IMG/VR virus record: IMGVR_UViG_3300037882_003601
Span: 1 to 27,639 of that record
Source of the DNA: a virus
Strand: one strand, 5' to 3'
DNA: 27,639 nucleotides
Shown here: one piece after another, positions 2,301-23,887 of the stretch
Layout: every line of letters starts with the position of its first letter
How positions within the stretch are numbered: position 1 is the stretch's first letter
Made by a program: the position numbers and the translations under genes
Notes under the pieces: model-generated
Told to the model about the DNA's origin: nothing
Databases searched by the model: none
Seen by the model: the letters and a program-made list of their open reading frames with translations, nothing else

Positions 2301-3359
2301 TCAATAGAGCATCATCAATTCCTCGTCATCGCGCGTCATTTGTTGCTTGCGCTGAATCCGTTGAATCTTTTCTTCCAGGTCGCGCTTCTGGCTGATATTC
2401 ATCATGGCGCTGGCCTTCTTGCCGATGATGTGTTCCAGCGTGACTGTCTTGTAACCAACAACCTTGTGCTGCGCATCGTGGATTGCCTGCTCGATAGCAA
2501 TCGCTTCTATTTGCGAATGCTGCTCATCTTCTAGGCGTTTACGTTCGTCATCAATCAGCTTCTTAGCCAATTTATCGCGCTTGGCATTACCACCACCAAA
2601 AGCGATAACAAACGGATCAACACCCGGTACAACGCTGGCATCTTGACTATCAGTAAACGATAGTGACTCGCTAACGGTCGGCGTGGTACCCGATACAACG
2701 CTTGCATCTTGCGAATCGGAGAATGCAACGGTTTCATCGCGGGTAACGCTGGCAACGAATGACGCGGATTGCGCATCGGTAAACGTGACCGATTCATTCT
2801 CGGTTGAGGCAAAAACCGCGATACTGGACTGCGCATCGGTAAAGGTGACTGACTCGTTACGTTGCCCGGACGTGACCAGGCCGGTTGACTGAGAATCAGT
2901 GAACGTTATCGATTCAGCACGGGCAACGGGATAAACAACGCTCGCCGACTGCGCATCGGTGAACGTTACTGTTTCGTCATTCTGCGACGTGCCAGCTGGT
3001 ACCGTGCCGTCTTGCGAGTCGGTGAAGGTGATTGATTCAGCGGTCGCGCCCGCTCTTACTGTCGCGGCATTCTGCGAGTCAGTAAAGGTAACTGTCTCGG
3101 CTTCGGTACTGCTGATGACTAGGGTTGCCGCTTGGCTATCGGTAAAGGTGACCGATTCGGCACGGGTACTGTTAAAGACAACGCTCGCCGATTGCGCGTC
3201 CGTAAAGGTGACCGTCTCGGCGGTTGCCGAATCACCCGTAACAGGCGAAAATACCAGGGTTTCGACAACCGGCCCAGAATCCCCAATGGGGAACCTAAGC
3301 CGCGACGCGATTAACGGAAAATTTATTCTACCGACAAAGGGATGACGATAGCGATACAT
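2301..3359 (-). CDS. Repeat-containing virion protein with VTFTDxQ repeats
   Basis: 352 aa. After about 40 N-terminal residues come ten tandem units of 20-22 aa built on (A/N/D)E(S/T)VTFTD(S/A)Q(S/D)A, each followed by a hydrophobic strand and a variable Ser/Thr-rich spacer. The unit looks like a beta-hairpin or beta-solenoid module. The last 100 residues differ sharply: charged, helical and coiled-coil-like (KRDKLAKKLIDDERKRLEDE, later QKRDLEEKIQRIQRKQQ). It lies between two structural genes and scaffold, so a head decoration or fibre role is likely. It is coupled to the gene upstream (stop 3364, start 3359) with no clear ribosome site. The repeat tract is prone to length change by recombination. 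Confidence 0.7.
   Translation of the reverse strand: MYRYRHPFVGRINFPLIASRLRFPIGDSGPVVETLVFSPVTGDSATAETVTFTDAQSASVVFNSTRAESVTFTDSQAATLVISSTEAETVTFTDSQNAATVRAGATAESITFTDSQDGTVPAGTSQNDETVTFTDAQSASVVYPVARAESITFTDSQSTGLVTSGQRNESVTFTDAQSSIAVFASTENESVTFTDAQSASFVASVTRDETVAFSDSQDASVVSGTTPTVSESLSFTDSQDASVVPGVDPFVIAFGGGNAKRDKLAKKLIDDERKRLEDEQHSQIEAIAIEQAIHDAQHKVVGYKTVTLEHIIGKKASAMMNISQKRDLEEKIQRIQRKQQMTRDDEELMMLY
2640..3245. repeat. Tandem 60-66-bp repeats within the VTFTDxQ gene
   Basis: Ten imperfect direct repeats of 60-66 bp encode the VTFTD(S/A)Q units. The most conserved DNA core corresponds to GTGACCTTTACTGA-like codons; spacers between cores are diverged, so the duplications are not recent, or diversification acts on the spacers. 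Confidence 0.85.
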
Positions 3360-3363
3360 CTAG

Positions 3364-4164
3364 TTAGCCGTTCGCGACAACTAACTCGACATCGATTACA
3401 CCCGTACTTGTAGCGTCGGTTACACTCATTAAAAATAGAGCGCTATCGGCGTAAATGATTGGCATCCCTGTCCGCGCCAAGTCGTGGACATCACCATGAT
3501 TCGCAATCATTACCCGACCTGACCATATTGGCCGCACGACTAGTATATTAAACGTACCAACGCTTGCCACAGAGCCAACTACGCCCGTGACACCTTGCAC
3601 ACCGGTATCACCGGATTGCAACGGCAATTGGAACATACGCCCCAAAATCAACGCTGCTGGCGCGGCAACTGTCCCGGTTGATCGACCTGCTGTTCCCGCT
3701 TGATTGGTATAGGTGACGTTAACGTTTTGTACGCCCGTACCCGCCGTTACTTGCTCAAGCCATAGTTGTGTATCAGTAAAATCCGTGCCACCCGGAACCC
3801 TGCTCGAAAAAGAATTTGGCGTATTGCCGCTGGTATTGACGTTAAATGCGTAAGCCCCGCCCTTCCATAGCAGATCAAACAATCTCAATCGACACGCTAC
3901 GGTTGAGCCATATCCAATCTGCGCTAAATAGCCCGTTGCGCCACCACCAAAAGCGTTGATAGTAGGACAGCCCGCCGTGGCATCGGTAGGAACGACGCCT
4001 GTTGTGGTTGATGTCCCGGCAAGCACGCCAGCGCCAGGTGCGCCAGCAATATCTAGCAGCCCCGTAGAACCCGCCGCAACGGTGGTTCTTGAGCCCGTTT
4101 TTGAAATCGCCACATATTGCTTTGCCGACGCAATAAAACCAGGGTCAAATGTTGTAATTGCCAT
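3364..4164 (-). CDS. Phage structural protein, head-region (hypothetical)
   Basis: 266 aa, rich in Gly, Thr, Val and Ala with few charged residues, as in beta-rich virion proteins. It has no signal peptide or membrane segment. Readable landmarks are LRLFDLLWKGGAYAFNV near residue 90-110 and RMFQLPLQSGDTGVQGVTGV near 190-210. The start at 4164 has AAGGCGG about eight bases upstream. It lies between the 202-aa virion protein and the repeat protein in the late operon, so it is probably an accessory head protein. I do not recognise a named family. Confidence 0.7.
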   Translation of the reverse strand: MAITTFDPGFIASAKQYVAISKTGSRTTVAAGSTGLLDIAGAPGAGVLAGTSTTTGVVPTDATAGCPTINAFGGGATGYLAQIGYGSTVACRLRLFDLLWKGGAYAFNVNTSGNTPNSFSSRVPGGTDFTDTQLWLEQVTAGTGVQNVNVTYTNQAGTAGRSTGTVAAPAALILGRMFQLPLQSGDTGVQGVTGVVGSVASVGTFNILVVRPIWSGRVMIANHGDVHDLARTGMPIIYADSALFLMSVTDATSTGVIDVELVVANG

Positions 4165-4185
4165 ATTGCGCCCGCCTTGTTAGTG

Positions 4186-4794
4186 TTAAGCCGCCGTTAA
4201 CGTGTAAACCACGTTGAGCGTATCCAGGTTAACCACCGCGCGAGAACCGCCGGTAAAGTCGCCCGCCGAAAACAGTACGCCGGTAGTGTCATCCTTAGTC
4301 GCACTCCCGCCATTATTGATGAAACAGCCGAATACCGTACCGGTTGAGGTAATGGCAAACGCTTGCGTCGGACTAGTGGATACCTGTGACGCGGCATTGC
4401 CCATCGTGACATCCTTGCGGTTGCCGGTATAGGTAGGCGCATTCGCTAATCCTTGCTCTAGCCATGCAGCATGAGAGGCTTGTGTATCGGCACCCGCCGC
4501 GGCACCCGTACCCTTTAAGCCCATGCGAATGGTTTGCGTATACGTAGCGCCTTTTAGGTACTTGTCCAAGATGTCATTTTTGCCGACGTTCGTTACCAAA
4601 TTAGGGAATGTTTCGGTTTCACCGACCTCAATTTGATAGACTCGCATTTCGCTAGTCAGCCGCAATTCCTCGGCTTTATCGCCTACCTCAATTGCCGCAT
4701 TGCGAGCGTCCCATAGCGGCATAAACTCGCTTAACTTAGTGGGGTCTGGACGTAAATGTGTGACGGTATATTCACCGTGGACGATATTGCTCAT
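4186..4794 (-). CDS. Phage structural protein with GLKGTG...SHAAWLE motif (hypothetical)
   Basis: 202 aa. The N-terminal 85 residues are charged and mixed helix/strand. From residue 90 comes a beta-rich domain with MGLKGTGAAAGADTQASHAAWLE, then TVFGCFINNGG, and the ending AVVNLDTLNVVYTLTA. I have seen this layout in hypothetical virion proteins of proteobacterial phages, but no function is known to me. Its ATG overlaps the stop of the upstream 63-aa gene (ATGA), so translation is coupled. Confidence 0.68.
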   Translation of the reverse strand: MSNIVHGEYTVTHLRPDPTKLSEFMPLWDARNAAIEVGDKAEELRLTSEMRVYQIEVGETETFPNLVTNVGKNDILDKYLKGATYTQTIRMGLKGTGAAAGADTQASHAAWLEQGLANAPTYTGNRKDVTMGNAASQVSTSPTQAFAITSTGTVFGCFINNGGSATKDDTTGVLFSAGDFTGGSRAVVNLDTLNVVYTLTAA

Positions 4795-4982: not shown

Positions 4983-5150
4983 TGTGTTTCGCCCATATCT
5001 ACCGACTCTAAAACGTGCAATAACTCTCGTGTTTGTGGATCGCGAACGGCGGTTCGCTTGCGCGGCTTGTCAGCGATTTCGATGAGTTTCGCCATGGCAG
5101 ACGCCAGCATGTTTTGATTGTCCAACAACGCTTGCATTTCCAAGTTCGGC
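4834..5150. repeat. Direct duplication of the portal 3' end (period 170 bp)
   Basis: Two diverged copies, about 4834-4978 and 5004-5148. Both begin with GACTCTAAAACGTG and share GGTTCGCTTGCGCGGCTT, with third-position changes between. The protein reading frame is kept in both, which argues for selection after the duplication. Confidence 0.8.
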
Positions 5151-7312
5151 ACCGGTTCTTGCGGCAATTCCTCGGCAACGGGGTCGGGTTGTTGCGGCTC
5201 AGGTTGTTGCGGCATTGCGCTAATCACATTGCCTTGCTCATCAAGCATATCGCCCGGTAACGGCGTCGGATTACGCAGTATTTGCTCGATCAAATCTTGC
5301 GTAACGGCTTGTATCTGTTGTTCGTTAGCGCCGACAATGCTTAGTCGTTTAGTCTCGGCATCGTAGGCTTTGATATCGTTCTCACGCTCGCGTACCTCGG
5401 CCAGACGCTTGGCATCGGCCATGCCTGCAATCGCCATATCCGCATCTTGCTGGGCGTCTTGCGCGTGCTGGATCGCTTCTTGCAAGGCTTGCTGGAGTTG
5501 TTGCACCTGTTGTGCCATTGCTGCCGGATCAACCTTCTGGTCAGAACCTTCGGGTTGCAGAATCGCCTTAACAGGAGGCGGGGCCATTGCTGCAACGGCT
5601 TGCGCGAACTTATCCGATCCAGGGAAATCAAGGGTCTGTGCCCAGAATGGCGCAATAATCGGGGCCATCGCCGGGTTAGCGCGCATCATTTCGGTGAACG
5701 ATGAATTAGTCTCTTTGCGCTGCGTGGCGTAACTGGCACCAACCACAACACGCACACCATATTTGCCAACGTTCGGATTGATCACAACACCATCCGGTGT
5801 ACGACTAAACGCCTCTTGCTGTTCCGGGTCGACGAACACATGACCGGGTGACTGATCAATACCAATAATCGGCTGTTTACGCCTGGTATCGGACAACTTA
5901 GCGTCCATTTGCATGACAATGCGCCCGACTTGCCCGAGGCTTGCCGACAAATGGCTTGGGAAGTGTGCGGTAGAGGCCTCACCTTGCTGCTTTTGAGCAT
6001 CGTAGGCCACACCGGAAACGACATTACTTTGCGCCCCAATGTTGGCTTGGTACATGCCAATGCTGGCTTGCAAATCCCTTAGCGCCTGCTCCGCTTCTTG
6101 GGAGTGGTTACGCAAATCCATGGATAGCGGCGTGCGATGCGGTGCGGGAATAGCAACACCCTGAGCATCCTGATCGTGATAGGGTAAATAGGAACGAGAA
6201 TCAACGCTTGCCCTATCCCATAATGGTTCTAGTCCGGAAATCGCACGGACAGAGGCTATCCACGGGGATTTAGGCGCTGTCCCTATGTGCGACAACATCT
6301 CGCTGCGATGATAGTTGTAGGCTTGCTGTGAGGCTCTAGCGCGACGCGGTATACCACAATACGTTAACCGGCCATCGGCGTAACCAACATAACCATACAC
6401 CGGCACAATGCCAATGTACTCAGATGGCCATTCCGCTTCGCGCCCTTCCGCGTCTTTGAACGTTTCCAGCACGGTAGCGCCAGACATCATGCGCCACTTA
6501 ACACACGAATATTTGTCCTTTTTGCTGTGCAAAATAGGTAATTTCACACCTAATCGCTCGCACATGTGCATGTATTCCGACTCTGTGCCGGAGACTTCCT
6601 CTCCGGATTGGTCTACATAGACCAGCATCGGGCGTTCTTTGGTTTCCTTAACCCACTGCTCGGCAACTAATATCGACTTACGATCATCACTGCGTCGTGT
6701 AGCAGTTAGATCACCAAAGTCGCGTACCTCGGCATTCGGCCAGCGCTTTTGGAATTTGGATATGGACATCGCGGTTAGAACGTACCCGAAATCCATATCG
6801 GAACCGTCCATTTCGTTAGACCATGGATCGACAACCACTCTTAACACGTCCGACTCGCTGCTGATACGCGGTTCTTGATAGTTCAGTGATCGATCAAGAT
6901 ACTCAGGGCGAACCGTGAGATAGCCAACGCCGACACGTGCCGCATTGGTTAGCGCGCGCTGGTAATGCTGCATTGCGCGTGACTCATGTTCGATGTGGCG
7001 AAATCGTCCGTCCATCTGTTCGGCGGCTTGCTTATCAGCCGATCCGCCTACCGGGATAGCATGAATACTCGGCGGTGTTTTCTCGACTTGCCCGGCCACA
7101 TTAGCCACGTATTGCCCAGTTTGATCGTGCACAAGGCACGGACGTTTACCGCCAGGATCGTTTTCACGCTGGCGCTTGATATCCTCTTCCCATTGTTGCG
7201 GGTCAGACGGATCGCTAAAGCGCAAATCTTCTTCGATCTGCCGACGCTGGTCGCTCATTGCCTCCATGGATTGAACGAACAACTTTTGTGCGTCTTCTAA
7301 AATGTCACTCAT
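4979..7312 (-). CDS. Portal protein, P22 gp1-like
   Basis: 777 aa (P22 gp1 is 725). The N-terminal half has the familiar portal pattern: DQRRQIEEDLRFSDP at the start, PCLVHDQTGQYVANVAG near 58-75, the RVGVGYLTVRPEY segment near 125, DPWSNEMDGSDMDFGYV near 162-177, and YRLTYCG/RRARASQQAYNYHRSE near 315-340. Residues about 590-660 are Gln/Ala-rich coiled coil, matching the long helical barrel of P22-type portals. The tail (723-777) is duplicated as the next gene. It forms the dodecameric DNA channel at one vertex and binds terminase. Its start overlaps the terL stop (ATGA). Confidence 0.88.
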   Translation of the reverse strand: MSDILEDAQKLFVQSMEAMSDQRRQIEEDLRFSDPSDPQQWEEDIKRQRENDPGGKRPCLVHDQTGQYVANVAGQVEKTPPSIHAIPVGGSADKQAAEQMDGRFRHIEHESRAMQHYQRALTNAARVGVGYLTVRPEYLDRSLNYQEPRISSESDVLRVVVDPWSNEMDGSDMDFGYVLTAMSISKFQKRWPNAEVRDFGDLTATRRSDDRKSILVAEQWVKETKERPMLVYVDQSGEEVSGTESEYMHMCERLGVKLPILHSKKDKYSCVKWRMMSGATVLETFKDAEGREAEWPSEYIGIVPVYGYVGYADGRLTYCGIPRRARASQQAYNYHRSEMLSHIGTAPKSPWIASVRAISGLEPLWDRASVDSRSYLPYHDQDAQGVAIPAPHRTPLSMDLRNHSQEAEQALRDLQASIGMYQANIGAQSNVVSGVAYDAQKQQGEASTAHFPSHLSASLGQVGRIVMQMDAKLSDTRRKQPIIGIDQSPGHVFVDPEQQEAFSRTPDGVVINPNVGKYGVRVVVGASYATQRKETNSSFTEMMRANPAMAPIIAPFWAQTLDFPGSDKFAQAVAAMAPPPVKAILQPEGSDQKVDPAAMAQQVQQLQQALQEAIQHAQDAQQDADMAIAGMADAKRLAEVRERENDIKAYDAETKRLSIVGANEQQIQAVTQDLIEQILRNPTPLPGDMLDEQGNVISAMPQQPEPQQPDPVAEELPQEPVPNLEMQALLDNQNMLASAMAKLIEIADKPRKRTAVRDPQTRELLHVLESVDMGETQ

Positions 7313-8532
7313 AGGTACGCACCTTGCGCGGCTGATTTAGTAAAATCGTAAATAGGAGCAGTCTTACCCGCCAATCGCGCGCCTTCACAGGCATAACGCA
7401 GTCCATCAATTACGTGATTGTTTTTGTCTTCTACGATTGGCAAAATTTCTTCCGTCAGCTTATCAATCTTGTAGGAATAGGTTGATAGCTCATCGATCAG
7501 ATGCGTACAACGCGGGTGTACCACGATCTCAAACGATTGCAGGAATGCGATACCCTCATCGATGCTACCCGCACCTTTCTGCGCTGCCTGCATCTTCGGG
7601 TAACCGTGCTTGATCATGTAACTAATCGTTTCCGGGCGAGCGCTATCGGCACGGCAAAACCATTTTCGTGATTCGGGCACGCGATCAAATAGTTCAGGGA
7701 GATTAAATATCTCACAGCCGACCATGTAGGCCTCATAGTCGACGTACAGGCGATTGCCATCAATGGACGCGCGTATCAACACGCTAGGATCAACGGAGTA
7801 TCCCCAATCCGCCCCCAGCCGATAGACAGTTCCCGGCGGACGTTCGAACTCCTCGACGATCCAATTTTTAAAGATGCGCGACTCGGACTGTCCCCGATAT
7901 TGCCCGTCCCATATCCAGGCGAATTTATCCGGATCGCGCTTGCGGTCGTACTCCAGTTCGGCCTTTAGCACATCCGGCAGACGTTTGTTATCGCTATAAT
8001 TAGCCTGTACCACAACAGCATCCGGCGGGAGTTTATCGCCGCGCAGTAGCTGGTCAATCGGATCAGTTTTTGAATTGGGATTCCAGTCGAACCACAATTC
8101 TGAATTTTGCTTGCGAATAGTGGGTCGGAGTAAATCTAGAGAAAATTGACTAGCATTCTGCGCTTCCGCAAACCACGCCCTATCAAAGCCTTCGAGCGAT
8201 TTAATCGACTCTGCAGTGTGGTTTTGCATGCCCTGAAATATCGTCGTGCCACCGGTTTTGCTAAAGATGCGCTTATCCTGCACCTCAAAATAGCTACCGG
8301 CGTTGTAATTCTCTATTTTTGATTCGAGCAACTTTTTAACGGAGAATTCGAGCGACTTGAGGATTTCGCGCAGACAAACGCAATCGAGTTTGCCGCGTAT
8401 GTTTTCTTCCAGCCACAGGTCTGCAAAAAAATGTGACTTGCCACTACCACGCCCGCCATGCGCACCTTTATACCGCGCCGGATTGAGTAGCGGCCGGAAA
8501 ACCTTGCTGGTCTCAATCGTCATCGATGTCAC
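7309..8532 (-). CDS. terL: Terminase large subunit
   Basis: 407 aa, a two-domain packaging motor of the SPP1 G2P/PBSX type. The ATPase domain has the Walker A GGRGSGKS (26-33), a Walker B region ending FAEA with the catalytic Glu (about 120-124), and the coupling motif FDWNP (148-152). The nuclease domain has acidic residues in ADWGYS (D242), RADSARPE (D296) and IDGLRYACE (D376). The first codon is GTG at 8532, overlapping the terS stop as GTGA; an ATG at 8523 is an alternative. It cuts the concatemer and pumps DNA through the portal encoded next. Confidence 0.93.
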   Translation of the reverse strand: MTSMTIETSKVFRPLLNPARYKGAHGGRGSGKSHFFADLWLEENIRGKLDCVCLREILKSLEFSVKKLLESKIENYNAGSYFEVQDKRIFSKTGGTTIFQGMQNHTAESIKSLEGFDRAWFAEAQNASQFSLDLLRPTIRKQNSELWFDWNPNSKTDPIDQLLRGDKLPPDAVVVQANYSDNKRLPDVLKAELEYDRKRDPDKFAWIWDGQYRGQSESRIFKNWIVEEFERPPGTVYRLGADWGYSVDPSVLIRASIDGNRLYVDYEAYMVGCEIFNLPELFDRVPESRKWFCRADSARPETISYMIKHGYPKMQAAQKGAGSIDEGIAFLQSFEIVVHPRCTHLIDELSTYSYKIDKLTEEILPIVEDKNNHVIDGLRYACEGARLAGKTAPIYDFTKSAAQGAYL

Positions 8533-8804
8533 TCGATGATTTTCCGAATCACTTCGCGGAATGTCAGCGGGTTTTCCTCATCGCCGGATAGCTGCACAGA
8601 CTGCGCGGCTTTGCCGTCTAATCGATCCGCCAACTCCTTGACTGCCCAAGGCTCGCCCAATGCAGCAAGGTCAAGCAACTTCTCCGCCGCTTCCCGTACC
8701 TTCTCACCATTATTCTGAGCAATCGCCCGCTTCAAATTATCGAGAAATGGCTTCTTAGCCAGTCCCCCCGCGGGGTTACCGGACTGCCCAGGTTTAAACG
8801 GCAT
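8529..8804 (-). CDS. Small terminase subunit candidate (DUF5681-like)
   Basis: 91 aa. The N-terminus FKPGQSGNPAGG is the signature of the DUF5681 family often found beside terL. The rest is helical (KPFLDNLKRAIAQNNGEKVREAAEKLLDLAALGEPWAVKELADRLDG would form two or three helices). Directly upstream of and overlapping terL, as small terminases are. It would recognise the packaging site and hand DNA to TerL. The protein is shorter than P22 gp3 (162 aa), so it may carry only the DNA-binding and oligomerising core. First gene after the late promoter region. Confidence 0.75.
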   Translation of the reverse strand: MPFKPGQSGNPAGGLAKKPFLDNLKRAIAQNNGEKVREAAEKLLDLAALGEPWAVKELADRLDGKAAQSVQLSGDEENPLTFREVIRKIIE

Positions 8805-8832
8805 TGCGCCGCAACTCTAACGATTTGAATTT

Positions 8833-8847
8833 GTTCGCTAGGCGAAC
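8833..8847. promoter_or_regulatory. Palindrome 1 (operator candidate) GTTCGCTAGGCGAAC
   Basis: Perfect 6-bp arms GTTCGC/GCGAAC around TAG. Identical to the site at 8938-8952, including three preceding T residues. It lies between the late promoter and terS, in the likely untranslated leader. Confidence 0.65.
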
Positions 8848-8900
8848 ATTTACCGAAACCATATTCATAAACCACAACATATAGTAGTTGCGAAGCCCTG

Positions 8901-8928
8901 AATGTACTACATATAGTGTTTTTGTCAA
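8901..8928 (-). promoter_or_regulatory. Candidate late promoter for the head operon
   Basis: Minus strand TTGACA (8928-8923), 16-bp spacer, TACATT (8906-8901). The -35 is perfect and the -10 is 4 of 6. It would start transcription near 8894, about 90 bases before terS. The palindrome just upstream of the -35 suggests regulation. Confidence 0.5.
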
Positions 8929-8937
8929 ACGCTATTT

Positions 8938-8952
8938 GTTCGCTAGGCGAAC
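8938..8952. promoter_or_regulatory. Palindrome 2 (operator candidate) GTTCGCTAGGCGAAC
   Basis: Second copy of the 15-bp palindrome, 105 bp from the first. It lies about ten bases upstream of the minus-strand -35 box (8923-8928), an activator-like position for the late operon, and about 50 bp upstream of the plus-strand -35 box. Confidence 0.65.
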
Positions 8953-9003
8953 TTTTTATCGTGAAATCAGCTAATTTATTTTAATTATTTGTTTAAATAG
9001 TTC

Positions 9004-9032
9004 TTGACATACTATCTATATATCTCTATAGT
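9004..9032 (+). promoter_or_regulatory. Strong sigma-70 type promoter for the 9090-9595 cassette
   Basis: TTGACA (9004-9009), 17-bp spacer, TATAGT (9027-9032). The region 9011-9032 also has matching ends ACTAT/ATAGT around a TATA-rich centre, an imperfect inverted repeat covering the -10 box where an autoregulator could bind. Further down, CCGGT (9064-9068) and ACCGG (9078-9082) form a hairpin whose 3' arm overlaps the GGAG ribosome site of the first gene. Confidence 0.75.
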
Positions 9033-9089
9033 TACAACATGACATCAGTCATACACACCCGCGCCGGTGAGTAGGCGACCGGAGAAAAA

Positions 9090-9401
9090 ATGAGCAAAAA
9101 TATCACAGAAAAACTCGCCGATTTATGTGTGGCTACCAATGGCGAAATTTACTATTCCGAGTGGGACGGTGGCGCATGGATGCATGAAGCGGTTGAAACT
9201 CAGGAAACAATTGAAAACTGGATCGAATCGAGCGCGACCTGGAACGAACGATCAGCCATGAAGCGCGGCGAAATCGCAAACATGCCATTCGTTTCCTGGG
9301 AAAACGTTCAAGTTCGAAAAGGCGACCAGCGCAAGAGCATTTCCGTTCTCGATTTTGGGGATTGCCGCTATGTCATTTCTCAAGACCTCACTGTTTTTTA
9401 A
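9090..9401 (+). CDS. Acidic 103-aa hypothetical protein, first gene of an opposite-strand cassette
   Basis: I do not recognise the family. The protein is clearly acidic (roughly 17 Asp/Glu against 10 Lys/Arg), soluble, Trp-rich in its first half (WDGGAWMHE, ENWIESSATW), and ends in beta strands (SISVLDFGDCRYVISQDLTVF). No signal peptide or membrane segment. It has its own strong promoter and GGAG ribosome site, and is directly followed by a small HTH gene (TAATG overlap). It runs against both neighbouring operons, as accessory (moron) genes do. A small acidic protein plus HTH regulator under a self-contained promoter is the layout of anti-CRISPR/Aca pairs, but this is analogy only. Confidence 0.72.
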   Translation: MSKNITEKLADLCVATNGEIYYSEWDGGAWMHEAVETQETIENWIESSATWNERSAMKRGEIANMPFVSWENVQVRKGDQRKSISVLDFGDCRYVISQDLTVF

Positions 9402-9595
9402 TGCCAACAATGACCCATTACCTATCAACCAAGGAATTCGCCGCTCAGTGCGGTCTTTGCGCCTCTAGAATATCCGTGCTGTGCAAGCTGGGGCGTATTC
9501 CGGGCGCGCAAAAAGTAGGCGGTGCGTACATTATCCCAGCTACTACCGTGATAATAAGCAATCCTAAACGCGGGCCTCGATCAACGAAATTTTAG
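9401..9595 (+). CDS. Small helix-turn-helix DNA-binding protein (HTH_17/excisionase-like)
   Basis: 64 aa. The winged-helix signature reads YLSTKEFAAQCGLCASRIS followed by LCKLGRIPGAQKVGGAYIIP, the typical HTH_17/MerR-like pattern with the RIPGA wing. A basic tail (NPKRGPRSTK) follows. The start at 9401 overlaps the preceding stop (TAATG); ATG at 9410 is an alternative. The 3' end overlaps the convergent VRR-NUC gene by 4 bp. It probably represses its own cassette promoter, whose -10 is covered by an inverted repeat. It could instead be an excisionase, but it is far from the integrase. Confidence 0.75.
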   Translation: MPTMTHYLSTKEFAAQCGLCASRISVLCKLGRIPGAQKVGGAYIIPATTVIISNPKRGPRSTKF

Positions 9596-9957
9596 ACATC
9601 GTCTAAATATTCCTTAACCACATTCGCCGCCTCATCACAGGATCGGCAAATCGCCGCCTTATTGCCGTATTCGGTCAATAATCGCAGAAAATCAAATTGC
9701 TCCGTTCGAACGATGCCTTTTTTGGCCTTGAACTCGATGTAAAGCGCCCCGAATCCCTTGCTTGGCACCGGCAAACACCAATCCGGCACGCCTTTGCGCA
9801 CGCCTTCTTTTTTCAGCATCGCGCCAACAATCACATTCCGGGCACCGCCGTTAGCAATGGCATACCCCAAATCCAGCGCGGGGTACTTTTTTTTGTTCCA
9901 GGCGCACCATTGGACAAACGCGACTTGGGTTAAATGTTCTTCGCGACTACGCGCCAT
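9592..9957 (-). CDS. VRR-NUC domain nuclease
   Basis: 121 aa, the usual size of a stand-alone phage VRR-NUC protein. The PD-(D/E)XK-like site is visible: E6/E7 in SREEHLTQ, GVPDW with D59, YIEFKAKKG with E75 and K77, and Gln87. Phage members often replace RusA-type resolvases and process replication or recombination intermediates before packaging. It is the last gene of the minus-strand early operon; 3 bases separate it from the HTH/zinc gene upstream. Converges with the plus-strand cassette (4-bp overlap). Confidence 0.88.
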   Translation of the reverse strand: MARSREEHLTQVAFVQWCAWNKKKYPALDLGYAIANGGARNVIVGAMLKKEGVRKGVPDWCLPVPSKGFGALYIEFKAKKGIVRTEQFDFLRLLTEYGNKAAICRSCDEAANVVKEYLDDV

Positions 9958-12709: not shown

Positions 12710-12892
12710 TTAATAATCACGCAAAGCATTAAAAATACGGTCAACAGTGCTAGGACGCGGTTCTTTGTATTTCCTGAGCATCCCTTGCAGGGTATTAATC
12801 GAAAAGCCGCTGTTTCGGCATATTTTTGCCCAATCTCCGCGCCGCTTTTCCAAACGTTCTTTAACGAGTTTCAACTTGATTTCATAGTCCAT
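12710..12892 (-). CDS. Cro-like repressor
   Basis: 60 aa with one helix-turn-helix: GDWAKICRNSGFSINTLQGML, flanked by charged helices (KLVKERLEKRR and STVDRIFNALRD). Size and position, divergent from the XRE repressor, are those of Cro in lambda-like phages. The predicted promoter places the transcription start at the A of the ATG, so the mRNA may be leaderless. It probably binds the AGTACnAAAnGACATW sites next to it and shuts off the repressor promoter. Confidence 0.82.
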   Translation of the reverse strand: MDYEIKLKLVKERLEKRRGDWAKICRNSGFSINTLQGMLRKYKEPRPSTVDRIFNALRDY

Positions 12893-12898
12893 GCGCCT

Positions 12899-12927
12899 AG
12901 TATGTCCTTTGGTACTGTCGTTGTCAA
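12899..12927 (-). promoter_or_regulatory. PR-like promoter for cro and the replication operon
   Basis: Minus strand TTGACA (12927-12922), 17-bp spacer, CATACT (12904-12899). The start point falls at about 12892. Operator-like site O1 covers the spacer and -10. Confidence 0.7.
12901..12916. promoter_or_regulatory. Operator-like site O1
   Basis: TATGTCCTTTGGTACT; its reverse complement AGTACCAAAGGACATA fits the shared pattern AGTACnAAAnGACATW. Overlaps the PR-like -10 and spacer. Confidence 0.6.
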
Positions 12928-12950
12928 GTACGAAATGACATTGTTAACAT
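12921..12950 (+). promoter_or_regulatory. PRM-like promoter for the repressor
   Basis: TTGTCA (12921-12926), 18-bp spacer, TAACAT (12945-12950). Weak, as maintenance promoters are. Its -35 coincides with the -35 of the divergent promoter (TTGTCAA reads as both), so only one polymerase can bind. Because the -10 covers 12945-12950, the ATG at 12949 cannot be the repressor start from this promoter. Confidence 0.5.
12927..12942. promoter_or_regulatory. Operator-like site O2
   Basis: AGTACGAAATGACATT, same pattern as O1 in the opposite orientation. Lies in the spacer of the PRM-like promoter, next to the shared -35. Confidence 0.6.
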
Positions 12951-12965
12951 GTACCAAAAGAAACT
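12950..12965. promoter_or_regulatory. Operator-like site O3 (weak)
   Basis: TGTACCAAAAGAAACT keeps GTACCAAA and the following G but loses GACAT. Overlaps the end of the PRM-like -10, a position suited to self-repression. Confidence 0.35.
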
Positions 12966-18079: not shown

Positions 18080-18304
18080 ATGGCACACTATTTGTCATCA
18101 TCTACACTGAGGTCTTTAATTGGCACTCATATGAGAGCTAAACAAGCCGATTGGCTAAACCTGAATCGTTGGCGTTATTCCATTGATTGCCATGGAAAAA
18201 TAAAAGTCGATCAAGATTATTACAACCACCGAATGAAGACCGCCGACACTCCTGCTCATGCCGAATCGTTGGTTCGGGAACCCAATTTTGAGGCACTGCT
18301 ATGA
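18080..18304 (+). CDS. DUF4224-like protein beside the integrase
   Basis: 74 aa. HYLSSSTLRSLIGTHMRAKQ, then WLNLNRWRYSIDCHGKIKV follow the DUF4224 plan (LT..EL..LTG....Q..WL...G..F.....G.P.V). Members nearly always sit directly before phage tyrosine integrases, as here (ATGA overlap at 18301), and probably help bind att DNA, like an excisionase. Starts 2 bases after the micro-ORF stop. Confidence 0.75.
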   Translation: MAHYLSSSTLRSLIGTHMRAKQADWLNLNRWRYSIDCHGKIKVDQDYYNHRMKTADTPAHAESLVREPNFEALL

Positions 18305-19188
18305 TCGCGCGCCGAAAGAAATTTATTGCGCTTGGGTTGCCACCAAGAATGCATCCGGTAGTCGGAAAAAGAGTAACGTCCTATCGATATCTAAGTCCTG
18401 ATAACAAATGGATACCGCTTGGTAGAGACCTTGCCTCAGCTAAGAAAAAAGCGTTTGAGTTTAATACCCGAACCCCTGAACTTAACACCGTCGTCTATTG
18501 GTTCAAAGAATATTTTAATAGCCAATGGTTTAAGCGACTAGCCTTGCGCACGCAGGTAGATTATCAAGAGTGCGCACGTCCAAACGGAAAGTTATTGCCG
18601 GTGTTTGGCCACATGCGGTTTCAGGATGTCACGCGCCCTCACATTGCTCAGTACAGGGATAAGCGAGGAGAGAAAGCCAAACGTCGAGCCAACACGGAAA
18701 TCACTTTGTTATCCGTAGTATGTCAGCTAGCCATGGAGCGAGATGAAACGATCAAGGAAAACCCGTGCAAGGGAGTTCGTCGCATACCGCAAAACAAGCG
18801 CTCGCGCGACGTTGCCCGCGATGAACGATTAGCCTATCTCGAAATGGCAAAGGGCATGAGCGAAGGGCTATACAAGATCGCGTTAATCGGCGAATTTGCG
18901 TTCCTGACCGGCCAGCGTCGCGCCGGGCTGCTAAAGTGTTCGGTATCCAATCTCAAAGATCATGGCATCGAGTTCCAATCAACCAAACATAAATCCAACG
19001 AAGACGCGGCGACCATCGTTATTCAGTGGTCACCGGCGCTGCGGCAGTGCGTCGAGAGCATTCGATCATTGTCGCGCCCAGTCGTAACACTGCGCGACCC
19101 ATTACTGTTTTGCACGTTATCCGGGAACCCGTACACCGAATCCACGGTTTATCTGATTTTAATCAACTGTTTTGCTCGTATTTTGTAG
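18301..19188 (+). pseudogene. int: Tyrosine integrase lacking its catalytic C-terminus
   Basis: 295 aa, against about 340-400 for relatives. The N-terminal arm-binding part (1-60: basic, SYRYLSPDNKWIPLG), the SAM-like core-binding domain (about 62-160: WFKEYFNSQWFKRLALRTQVDY...F, TRPHIAQYRDKR) and the start of the catalytic domain are intact, with the first Arg in FLTGQRRAGLL (R206) and a Lys in the STKHK beta turn. After GNPYTESTV the protein runs into YLILINCFARIL and stops. The HxxR, His/Trp and nucleophilic Tyr boxes are missing, and no frame up to 19342 contains them. As seen, it cannot catalyse recombination by itself; it may still bind DNA. Typed as pseudogene on that basis. Confidence 0.82.
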
Positions 19189-21358: not shown

Positions 21359-23887
21359 CTATTGGCGGGCGTTTCCAACAACCTCCCAATCAGTCGCCAC
21401 GGCGTTTTCCTGAGTCAGAGGCACACTACCCGCACGCTGCATTGATTTACCAGACACCGCGCTTGCTACCGCCGCTTGTAGCGTTTCGTAAGGCGGTAAG
21501 ACGGGTAACCATGCCGTTACATTGTCTACCGGCGTCATCGTTACCGTTGGCTCGCTACGACGGCGCACGGTTCGCCCTGCTTGGATCGCTGGCAACACAT
21601 CCGTTAACGTCATTGGTTCCGGCTGGGGTGGCGGTGAAACCACTGGATAGCCCACATGCGCCGGATCACGATTTTTATAGGCGTCCAAGACGCTGCAACA
21701 GTTGGCGTAATAGCGCAAATCCGCCCAATTAACGATATCCGCGCAGTCGAATTCCGCAATCAGATAATCTTTGAATTCTGCATCTGTGAGCAACGACAAT
21801 TGGTTCACTGTTTTGTACTGAGCAAGGTAGCAAACCCATTCCGCGCCCAAGCACGTTTGCAGCGATGCGCGCCGCCTACCATCCGAACGGATAGCCTCGG
21901 ATTGGTACACCCACTCGCCGGTTTTGTATCGAGCGAAATCGAAGGCTGGCCATTTGCCGTCTTGACGGGTGATGAAAAACAATCCTTGGTGACCGTCCGC
22001 GCTCATGACAATACCGCCACTCGTCGGTGCAATCAGCCTGGGATAGCCGTTAAAGGGCACGCCAGGATGTCCGCCAGGTGCGCCGTATGAGCCGCCCCAA
22101 TAGGGCAGCGTAGAGCCGTCTACGGCAGTCACAGCGACCGAGTTGTCGTACCAGTGGCACGTAAACGCCGCGTCTTTGTACTTCGGCCCGCACCATGCGC
22201 CCCGGTCAAGCGCCAGCGTTGGCCATGAGTAGCGCAACACTTCAGGGCGCTTGCCCATGTAATGTTTTGGTAGATTGCGTACCAATTTGATCGTGCCCGC
22301 ATCGAGGTCAATGCGCATTAGCTGATAGGTGTCGTGGCAAACGTACTCAACTGTTTTACCATCGCTCAATGTTTCCATTTGCGTCGGGTGGCAAAATTGC
22401 GCCGTTGCGAACGGTACTGCATCGAACGTCATCGCACCCCAAGCCGCGCGATTCAAATCTTCATCCTCTTTGAAATCGCCCTGATTATCACCGGGATAAA
22501 CACCAAAGAATTTAGTCGGGACTTTTGGTGCTTTTGCCAGAGTAGAGAGTAATCCGGTTTTTAGATCAAGCATGCGAATTGCGGAATTGTGCTCATCGCC
22601 AATGAGTAAACAGCCAGCGTATTTGCCCGCCGTTATGCCAGTCACGCCGCGCGGCTGATTCATTTTGTTCTGGCCAACTAGGCCGTCGAGGTACCCATCA
22701 CCATTACCGCCCGCTGCAACGCGGCCATTCCTGGTTTTTAGATCGATCCGCACGATAGATGATTTCCACGGCTCGGCGACGTAAATAACATCCGGCTCGT
22801 TATCAAGGGGTGACCAGCACATATCCCAAGCACGATCAATGCGGGGCGCGTTAACAGGATCGTCCGCGACAAAATTAAAATACTGCGCTTCCCAGTCGTG
22901 ACGGGCTTTAGGATCATCAATAGCAGATGCGCATCGCGTATTGGGCGCACCGTCTTTTGATTCCCAGCCGTAGAAGGTCTCGCACTTCCCTGTTTCAATG
23001 CTCTTCTCCCACACCGAACCGATTGGCGACCCAAATATCAAGTCTCCATTCGGGCGCTCAAGAACTTTAAATGCAAATGATTTAGGCTGAGCGGTTTCAA
23101 CGTCGCCCGATTTGCTGTCGTTCAGAGACATATCGCCGAAGATCGTCGCGTATTGTTTTTTATATCGCGCGACAGATGAGGGCGTGCGACCGTCATAATC
23201 GCTTTCGGTGTATCGATGATAGTTGGTCATGATCGGCCCGCCCCACGGGGTCATCGTAGGCAGTGACATACCGTCATAGTCGCTTGAGAAACTCACGGCG
23301 ATAGGTTGTGACCACACCTGAGCGGCACCTTGATACGGATCGATGTTGGTGGTAAACCCGGCTGATTTAACCAACGGAACATTAAGGTTGCCAGACTTGC
23401 GCACGCCTTTATAGGGCACAATTTTTGATCCGTAATTAAACGGCCAGTAATCGCGTTCGGGGAAGTAATGCGGCGCTAACAGAATGTTCTTTGCATCCGG
23501 CAATTGCACTTTTCCTTTGCTCACAACGAAGGCAGTGTTGAGCGTGCATTCGAGCGACGATCCGAGGTGGTAAATTCCATCTGCAAGATTGAGTGATTTC
23601 GCGCTTGGCTTCCATGATGCGTCAATGGTGGTAAAAACCGGCGAGGTCACTGCTACAACCCGTTGGCCGGACTCGATAGAATATAAATGCATCGTCCAAG
23701 GCACGACAGCGCCAGTCCAAGGCTTCATGCCGCCCGCATAGGTGTCGAACAAGCGCGCGCCGATAGCGATAACATCGTCGACGAGTGAATATGAAGTCCA
23801 AAGCGACCAACGGTCATACGTCGAATAAATATTAGCTTGTGGTGTAAGGACACCAACAATGGGTTGATTCGTGCCGTTGATGATCAT
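21359..23887 (-). CDS. Large virion-associated protein with NHL-like beta-propeller
   Basis: 842 aa, no signal peptide. The first 300 residues are beta-rich and Trp/Tyr-rich (YDRWSLWTSYSLVDDVIAIGARLFDTYAGG). Residues about 355-640 carry propeller blades: VIYVAEPWKSSIVRIDLKTR, AAGGNGDGYLDG, MNQPRGVTGI, CLLIGDEHNSAIRMLDLKTG, VEYVCHDTYQLMRIDLDAGT. The DG....A....P.G...... pattern is typical of NHL repeats. The tail from about 745 is Pro-rich and variable. Last gene of the tail region; best guess is a receptor-contacting fibre or tip. The NHL assignment is by eye. Confidence 0.72.
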   Translation of the reverse strand: MIINGTNQPIVGVLTPQANIYSTYDRWSLWTSYSLVDDVIAIGARLFDTYAGGMKPWTGAVVPWTMHLYSIESGQRVVAVTSPVFTTIDASWKPSAKSLNLADGIYHLGSSLECTLNTAFVVSKGKVQLPDAKNILLAPHYFPERDYWPFNYGSKIVPYKGVRKSGNLNVPLVKSAGFTTNIDPYQGAAQVWSQPIAVSFSSDYDGMSLPTMTPWGGPIMTNYHRYTESDYDGRTPSSVARYKKQYATIFGDMSLNDSKSGDVETAQPKSFAFKVLERPNGDLIFGSPIGSVWEKSIETGKCETFYGWESKDGAPNTRCASAIDDPKARHDWEAQYFNFVADDPVNAPRIDRAWDMCWSPLDNEPDVIYVAEPWKSSIVRIDLKTRNGRVAAGGNGDGYLDGLVGQNKMNQPRGVTGITAGKYAGCLLIGDEHNSAIRMLDLKTGLLSTLAKAPKVPTKFFGVYPGDNQGDFKEDEDLNRAAWGAMTFDAVPFATAQFCHPTQMETLSDGKTVEYVCHDTYQLMRIDLDAGTIKLVRNLPKHYMGKRPEVLRYSWPTLALDRGAWCGPKYKDAAFTCHWYDNSVAVTAVDGSTLPYWGGSYGAPGGHPGVPFNGYPRLIAPTSGGIVMSADGHQGLFFITRQDGKWPAFDFARYKTGEWVYQSEAIRSDGRRRASLQTCLGAEWVCYLAQYKTVNQLSLLTDAEFKDYLIAEFDCADIVNWADLRYYANCCSVLDAYKNRDPAHVGYPVVSPPPQPEPMTLTDVLPAIQAGRTVRRRSEPTVTMTPVDNVTAWLPVLPPYETLQAAVASAVSGKSMQRAGSVPLTQENAVATDWEVVGNARQ

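Follow-up and report, generated by a model that had tools for sequence, protein, structure and literature searches.

The two coupled genes between the terminase and VRR-NUC operons of this virus are best explained as an accessory (moron) phage operon that has a promoter and a regulator of its own and in which countering a host defence is the likeliest single role of the first gene product, a reading to which we assign a probability of about 0.5. The cassette consists of a sigma-70-type promoter, a gene for an acidic ORFan of 103 aa and, coupled directly to it, a gene for a 64-aa helix-turn-helix (HTH) protein (Table 1). The window, meaning the whole stretch of DNA that was analysed, is a 27,639-base IMG/VR virus record.

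Table 1. Positions of the cassette elements and of related features in the window.
Feature	Position	Strand	Remarks
terS-terL-portal-head operon	8804 to 176	minus
terS	8529-8804	minus
Dyad GTTCGC-TAG-GCGAAC, copy 1	8833-8847		exact; about 29 bp upstream of terS
Promoter-like TTGACA-N16-TACATT toward terS	8901-8928	minus	10/12; between the dyads
Dyad GTTCGC-TAG-GCGAAC, copy 2	8938-8952		exact; between terS and cassette; probable operator
Sigma-70-type promoter TTGACA-N17-TATAGT	9004-9032	plus	11/12 consensus positions
Inverted repeat ACTAT-N12-ATAGT	9011-9032		over spacer and -10; weak; candidate HTH site
Dyad ATGAC-ATCA-GTCAT	9039-9052		start of predicted transcript; alternative operator or 5' hairpin
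5'-UTR hairpin	9059-9082 (about)	plus	3' arm extends into GGAG ribosome-binding site (9081-9084)
103-aa acidic ORFan, putative effector	9090-9401	plus	pI 4.6
64-aa MerR/Xis-like HTH protein, putative autoregulator	9401-9595	plus	ATG overlaps stop of 103-aa ORF (TAATG, one base)
Stem TTTAGAC-ATC-GTCTAAA	9591-9607		7-bp, AT-rich, no U-tract; over convergent overlapping stops of HTH gene and VRR-NUC
VRR-NUC	9592-9957	minus
O-like protein and VRR-NUC nuclease operon	11893 to 9592	minus
DUF4224 gene	18080-18304		overlaps integrase start
Integrase	18301-19188

Genomic Context of the Cassette

The window phage is temperate and P22-like, because it carries ERF, SSB, an integrase and a Cro/CI-type HTH gene and has P22-like head relatives. 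PHROG matches were obtained for the major head protein, the portal and the scaffold; TerL shares 72% identity with its counterpart in a Manatee Spring phage and 68% with the one in Xanthomonas phage PBR31, and P22-like portal and coat genes are annotated in the relatives. Approximately 790 bases separate the VRR-NUC operon from the terS operon, and the cassette lies in this interval, with replication genes on one side and DNA-packaging genes on the other, on the plus strand, against both flanking operons, as the preliminary description of this DNA had it. The gene content of the pre-terminase stretch differs among relatives. Opposite-strand ORFs found before terS in relatives belong to no family and may be spurious, and were set aside.

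The cassette had also been called self-contained and inserted, and neither term is borne out. No plus-strand terminator was found 3' of the HTH gene, whose stop codon overlaps that of the convergent VRR-NUC gene under the AT-rich stem. The 103-aa ORF uses codons as the phage does, and no empty site came to light in any relative: a VRR-NUC-based search for such a site returned no relatives, and neither cassette gene is present in any of the TerL relatives fetched, none of which is close enough to reveal an empty site.

Other parts of the window hold further genes of interest. Proteins of 352, 266 and 202 aa, the first two lacking a PHROG match, are encoded on the minus strand between the portal and scaffold genes (2301-4794); in PBR31 the scaffold gene directly follows the portal gene, so the three may be accessory genes within the head operon. 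An 842-aa protein lacking a PHROG match, encoded where the late (tail) genes end (21359-23887, minus strand), is a possible novel tail or injected protein. In the immunity-like region (12710-12961), a small HTH-like gene (12710-12892, minus strand) diverges from the Cro/CI-type gene (12949, plus strand), and the TTTGGTAC/GTACCAAA repeats of this region are different from the GTTCGC dyads described below.

Promoter and Upstream Gap

The near-consensus promoter of the preliminary description was confirmed. Only two sites with at least 11 of 12 consensus positions occur in the window, against 0.2 expected from shuffles, and the cassette promoter is one of them; within the 285-bp gap a chance promoter of this quality appears in 1.75% of shuffles. 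It reads against the operons on either side and gives the cassette the independent promoter that is one mark of a phage moron.

An inverted repeat over the -10 element and a hairpin at the ribosome-binding site had been reported as well, and both are present, but neither is strong. The repeat has 5-bp arms around 12 bp and lies in an AT-rich gap so rich in dyads (15 with arms of at least 5 bp against 5.6 expected, p 0.01) that it is not singled out, and the hairpin is modest (UTR MFE -14.2 kcal/mol, z -1.8). An additional ATAGT is found at 8997-9001, and 8805-9089 contains five copies of ATAGT/ACTAT where 0.98 would be expected (p 0.002, for a motif picked post hoc).

The 103-aa Protein

The 103-aa ORF, whose ATG is preceded at 5 nt by GGAG, has a phage-like coding signal, scoring 0.29 bits/codon in frame while the five alternative frames range from -0.13 to 0.07. 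Its product is acidic, a property that is not distinctive, as four of 27 further small proteins in the tabulation also fall below pI 5. The preliminary description held that it belongs to no known family, and this is upheld: no match better than E 0.07 was found in Pfam, NCBIfam and PADLOC, PHROGs gave sub-threshold matches to uncharacterised families (best E 0.026), and PDB sequences gave nothing (best E 0.1). Searches of 50,697 phages and 72,556 plasmids (tblastn), of IMG/VR and of genome contigs revealed no homologue, nor did a scan for relatives with the motif V-x-K-G...DFGD. Two candidates were rejected as chance matches, namely a 17-aa match within a 153-aa Falkowbacteria protein (L086) and a phage head-morphogenesis type protein (L091). 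Membership in a known family of unrelated role, which would have spoken against a counter-defence function, was thus looked for and not found.

An AlphaFold2 single-sequence model of the protein has the order a-b-b-a-a-b-b-b at low confidence (mean pLDDT 60), and a fold search with it gave nothing usable (best Foldseek E 0.02 among viral and 0.23 among PDB structures; VIA Z at most 3.4), an absence of fold matches that proves nothing with such a model.

The 64-aa HTH Protein

The directly coupled HTH gene of the preliminary description is likewise present. In profile searches PF12728 HTH_17 is the sole Pfam family at E up to 5, with E-values of 5e-5 (23.8 bits) and 2.7e-6, under the curated cut-off of 27 bits. 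Weak matches were obtained to the Cox-like phrog_575 (E 0.002), to excisionase PHROGs and to other phage DNA-binding families, the members of which include repressors. The model topology, E-H-H-E-E, is that of the MerR/Xis winged HTH, and the closest folds are BldC, the MerR family and phage Xis, all with low scores (Z about 4 for phage Xis); searching PDB with a profile of the HTH alignment yielded chance matches only. Eight positions (A14, G18, L27, I33, G35, A36, G40 and P46) are invariant between the protein and five homologues. The closest homologue, in contig L002, is 42% identical to it. Judged by profile and predicted topology, the protein is a truncated MerR/Xis-like domain of the HTH_17 type. 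Its ORF shows no phage-like codon bias (-0.02 bits/codon).

Could the protein be the phage excisionase, with the 103-aa ORF as an unrelated passenger? The weak Cox-like and excisionase PHROG matches and the presence of phage Xis among the closest folds speak for this reading, but the immunity region lies between the HTH gene and the integrase, which are 8.7 kb apart. We regard an excisionase as extremely unlikely because of this distance and because a DUF4224 gene overlaps the integrase start; a true excisionase, which the preliminary description had named as an outcome that would count against it, is therefore not indicated. The DUF4224 gene and the tyrosine integrase (18080-19188) are probably the true integration/excision pair.

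The charges of the two cassette proteins bear on another alternative, a type II toxin-antitoxin module with the toxin first and a truncated MerR-like antitoxin second, which we consider distinctly improbable. An acidic first protein is followed here by a basic HTH protein (pI 10.2), and most toxin-antitoxin pairs have the opposite charge order. No PIN, RelE, MazF or other toxin family was detected in Pfam, NCBIfam or PADLOC, so that a known toxin partner was not found. The overlapping genes and their own promoter do agree with such a module, truncated MerR-like antitoxins paired with PIN toxins have been described (PMC2701414), and toxin-first operons with HTH antitoxins resemble acr-aca operons (PMC9410906).

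Neighbours of the HTH Homologues

The HTH family is very broad, with stand-alone members in phages and plasmids and others that are domains at the N-terminus of methylases and further enzymes. Among sampled IMG/VR contigs, found by pattern scans, the neighbours of the homologues vary. The preliminary description had raised the question of whether the HTH protein is repeatedly next to different small genes; this holds in some contigs, in one case with a recognised anti-defence gene as the neighbour, but there is no consistent pattern.

The anti-defence gene is ardC. In contigs L100 (4874-5887) and L112 (reverse strand, 3576-4589), a 51-aa HTH_17-type gene begins 3 nt after an ardC gene whose 284-aa product matches ArdcN (E 6e-37) and a zincin metallopeptidase (E 4e-50); the two contigs are near-identical, and the link represents one virus lineage. 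This 51-aa protein is a possible ardC regulator. In the phage contig L101 (1023-1557), a 63-aa HTH gene overlaps the end of a gene for a 115-aa acidic ORFan (pI 4.05), and the spanin/holin-like ORFs near this pair run on the other strand. The homologue in L002 is located after a ParB-like gene, and some phage homologues are without a small partner gene. In L113 (2379-2934) and L107 (reverse strand, 5079-5747), an HTH of this type follows another domain within one fused protein. That domain has no Pfam match in L113 and is of no assigned type in L107, and both proteins are possible effector-regulator fusions.

Duplicated Dyads Upstream of terS

Two exact GTTCGC dyads precede terS, within 23-nt repeats (8829-8851 and 8934-8956) identical at 22 of 23 positions. 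They lie 105 bp apart, corresponding to 10 turns at 10.5 bp; a dyad duplicated within 500 bp arose in six of 1000 shuffles, and the dyad occurs nowhere else in the window. With the promoter-like site toward terS between them, at about -51 and +54 from its predicted start, the pair may resemble gal-type looping operators and may indicate late-gene control.

This arrangement is the basis of a rival reading of the cassette, a switch of the late operon, in which the HTH protein, acting by itself or with the 103-aa protein as its partner or antagonist, would bind both dyads, form a loop as with the two gal operators and repress the terS/head operon, the divergent cassette promoter being coordinately controlled. 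The flanking geometry, the improbability of the dyad pair and the divergent HTH gene, which encodes the nearest regulator and a candidate binder, are consistent with such a switch. We nevertheless hold it to be unlikely. The terS promoter matches at 10 of 12 positions and is not significant alone, since six such sites were found window-wide against 5.65 expected, and the pair is absent upstream of terS in all TerL relatives fetched and, at similar spacing, from IMG/VR contigs in an exact scan. Truncated MerR/Xis domains, moreover, often bind direct repeats and not dyads.

The GTTCGC half-site is identical to that of the Aca2 operator, GTTCGC-AATT-GCGAAC (PMC9410881), with a spacer of 3 bp in the dyads as opposed to 4 bp in the operator. 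No PF08965 Aca2_YdiL protein is present in the contig, and an Aca2-like binder of the dyads was rejected accordingly.

The shared half-site is also a point in favour of a true acr-aca operon, a specific form of the accessory-operon reading in which the 103-aa protein would inhibit CRISPR-Cas and the HTH protein would be an Aca of a new HTH_17 type. The search criteria for such operons are closely spaced genes on a single strand, each coding for fewer than 200 aa, together with an HTH protein of less than 150 aa and a mobile element (PMC9765179, PMC6739104), and the cassette, with products of 103 and 64 aa, a 1-bp overlap and a phage contig, has this layout. The anti-CRISPR/Aca-like layout of the preliminary description stands to that extent, but the criteria are non-specific and fit many phage gene pairs. 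The HTH protein has no match among the Pfam families assigned to Aca1-10 (PMC9410906, Table 1), and the 103-aa protein showed no Acr homology in searches of Pfam, NCBIfam, PHROGs or PDB sequences, Acr families being mutually unrelated. The position of the HTH protein outside the Aca1-10 families agrees with the earlier suggestion of a new pairing, yet the pairing would not be the first of its kind, because AcrVA1 homologues in IMG/VR have been reported with neighbouring HTH_17 or HTH_XRE proteins (PMC6739104), a report that itself lends the acr-aca reading some credit. Taken together, these observations make a true acr-aca operon very unlikely.

Proposed Function of the Cassette

We propose that host RNA polymerase would transcribe the cassette from 9004-9032, and that the 103-aa effector would be translated first and the HTH protein after it by stop-start coupling. 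The Cox/MerR-like winged HTH may bind short repeats in the upstream gap, either the ATAGT/ACTAT copies within or near the promoter or the GTTCGC dyads, and binding at such a predicted site would lower expression of the cassette. The effector would work in the host cell, presumably early in infection or during lysogeny, and countering a defence, be it restriction, CRISPR or another system, would be its likeliest single role. The layout, the mobile context and the ardC precedent weakly favour counter-defence, and the ardC association, seen in one lineage, is compatible with an anti-defence role that the effector may have.

An accessory operon is favoured by a promoter among the top two of the window, the coupled ORFs, the coding signal of the 103-aa ORF, the HTH_17 and weak Cox-like matches, the distance of the HTH gene from the integrase, the ardC-HTH and L101 pairs and the variable pre-terminase gene content. 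Against it, the effector lacks a homologue, so that its conservation has no independent support; the ardC association comes from one lineage, other HTH homologues being ParB-adjacent, partnerless or enzyme domains; and there are no terminator, no empty site, a weak promoter repeat and an HTH ORF without phage-like codon bias.

If the effector counters host defence, the cassette adds a new ORFan anti-defence family, and truncated MerR/Xis-like proteins, besides XRE/KorA-like ones, become a guide to anti-defence genes; if the HTH protein binds the GTTCGC dyads, loop-type late-gene control would operate in a P22-like phage. The stronger proposal, that the 103-aa protein founds a new counter-defence family and the HTH protein a new class of MerR/Xis-type autorepressors usable to find anti-defence genes, appears improbable to us. 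What the evidence bears out at present is no more than an ordinary accessory operon under regulation, with a putative effector.

Comparison with Known Systems

The cassette resembles the acr-aca operons acrIF8-aca2 of phage ZF40 and acrIC7-acrIC6-aca10 in its strong consensus promoter, in the order of a small ORFan followed by a small HTH gene on the same strand and in its location in a phage, and the dyads near it have the half-site of the Aca2 operator. It differs from them in the HTH_17/MerR-Xis type of its regulator, which is not one of Aca1-10, in the absence of an Acr homologue, in the weak inverted repeat of the core promoter and in the position of the GTTCGC dyads, which have a 3-bp spacer and lie outside the core promoter. 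With the PIN-MerR type II pairs it shares a truncated MerR-like DNA-binding protein, a two-gene operon and mobile DNA, but its partner protein has no PIN domain and the charges are reversed.

Like P2 Cox, phage Xis and the BldC-like truncated MerR proteins, the 64-aa protein consists of a single small winged-HTH domain, and Cox acts both as excisionase and as repressor; in contrast to these proteins, its sequence similarity is weak and its gene is not beside an integrase. The ardC-HTH pair is alike in having a short HTH_17-type gene directly downstream, in that case of an anti-defence gene, although its first gene product, ArdC, is unrelated to the 103-aa protein and the pair is known from a single lineage. 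Viewed against these systems, the cassette is of a known kind, a regulated phage accessory operon, and what is new in it is the ORFan effector.
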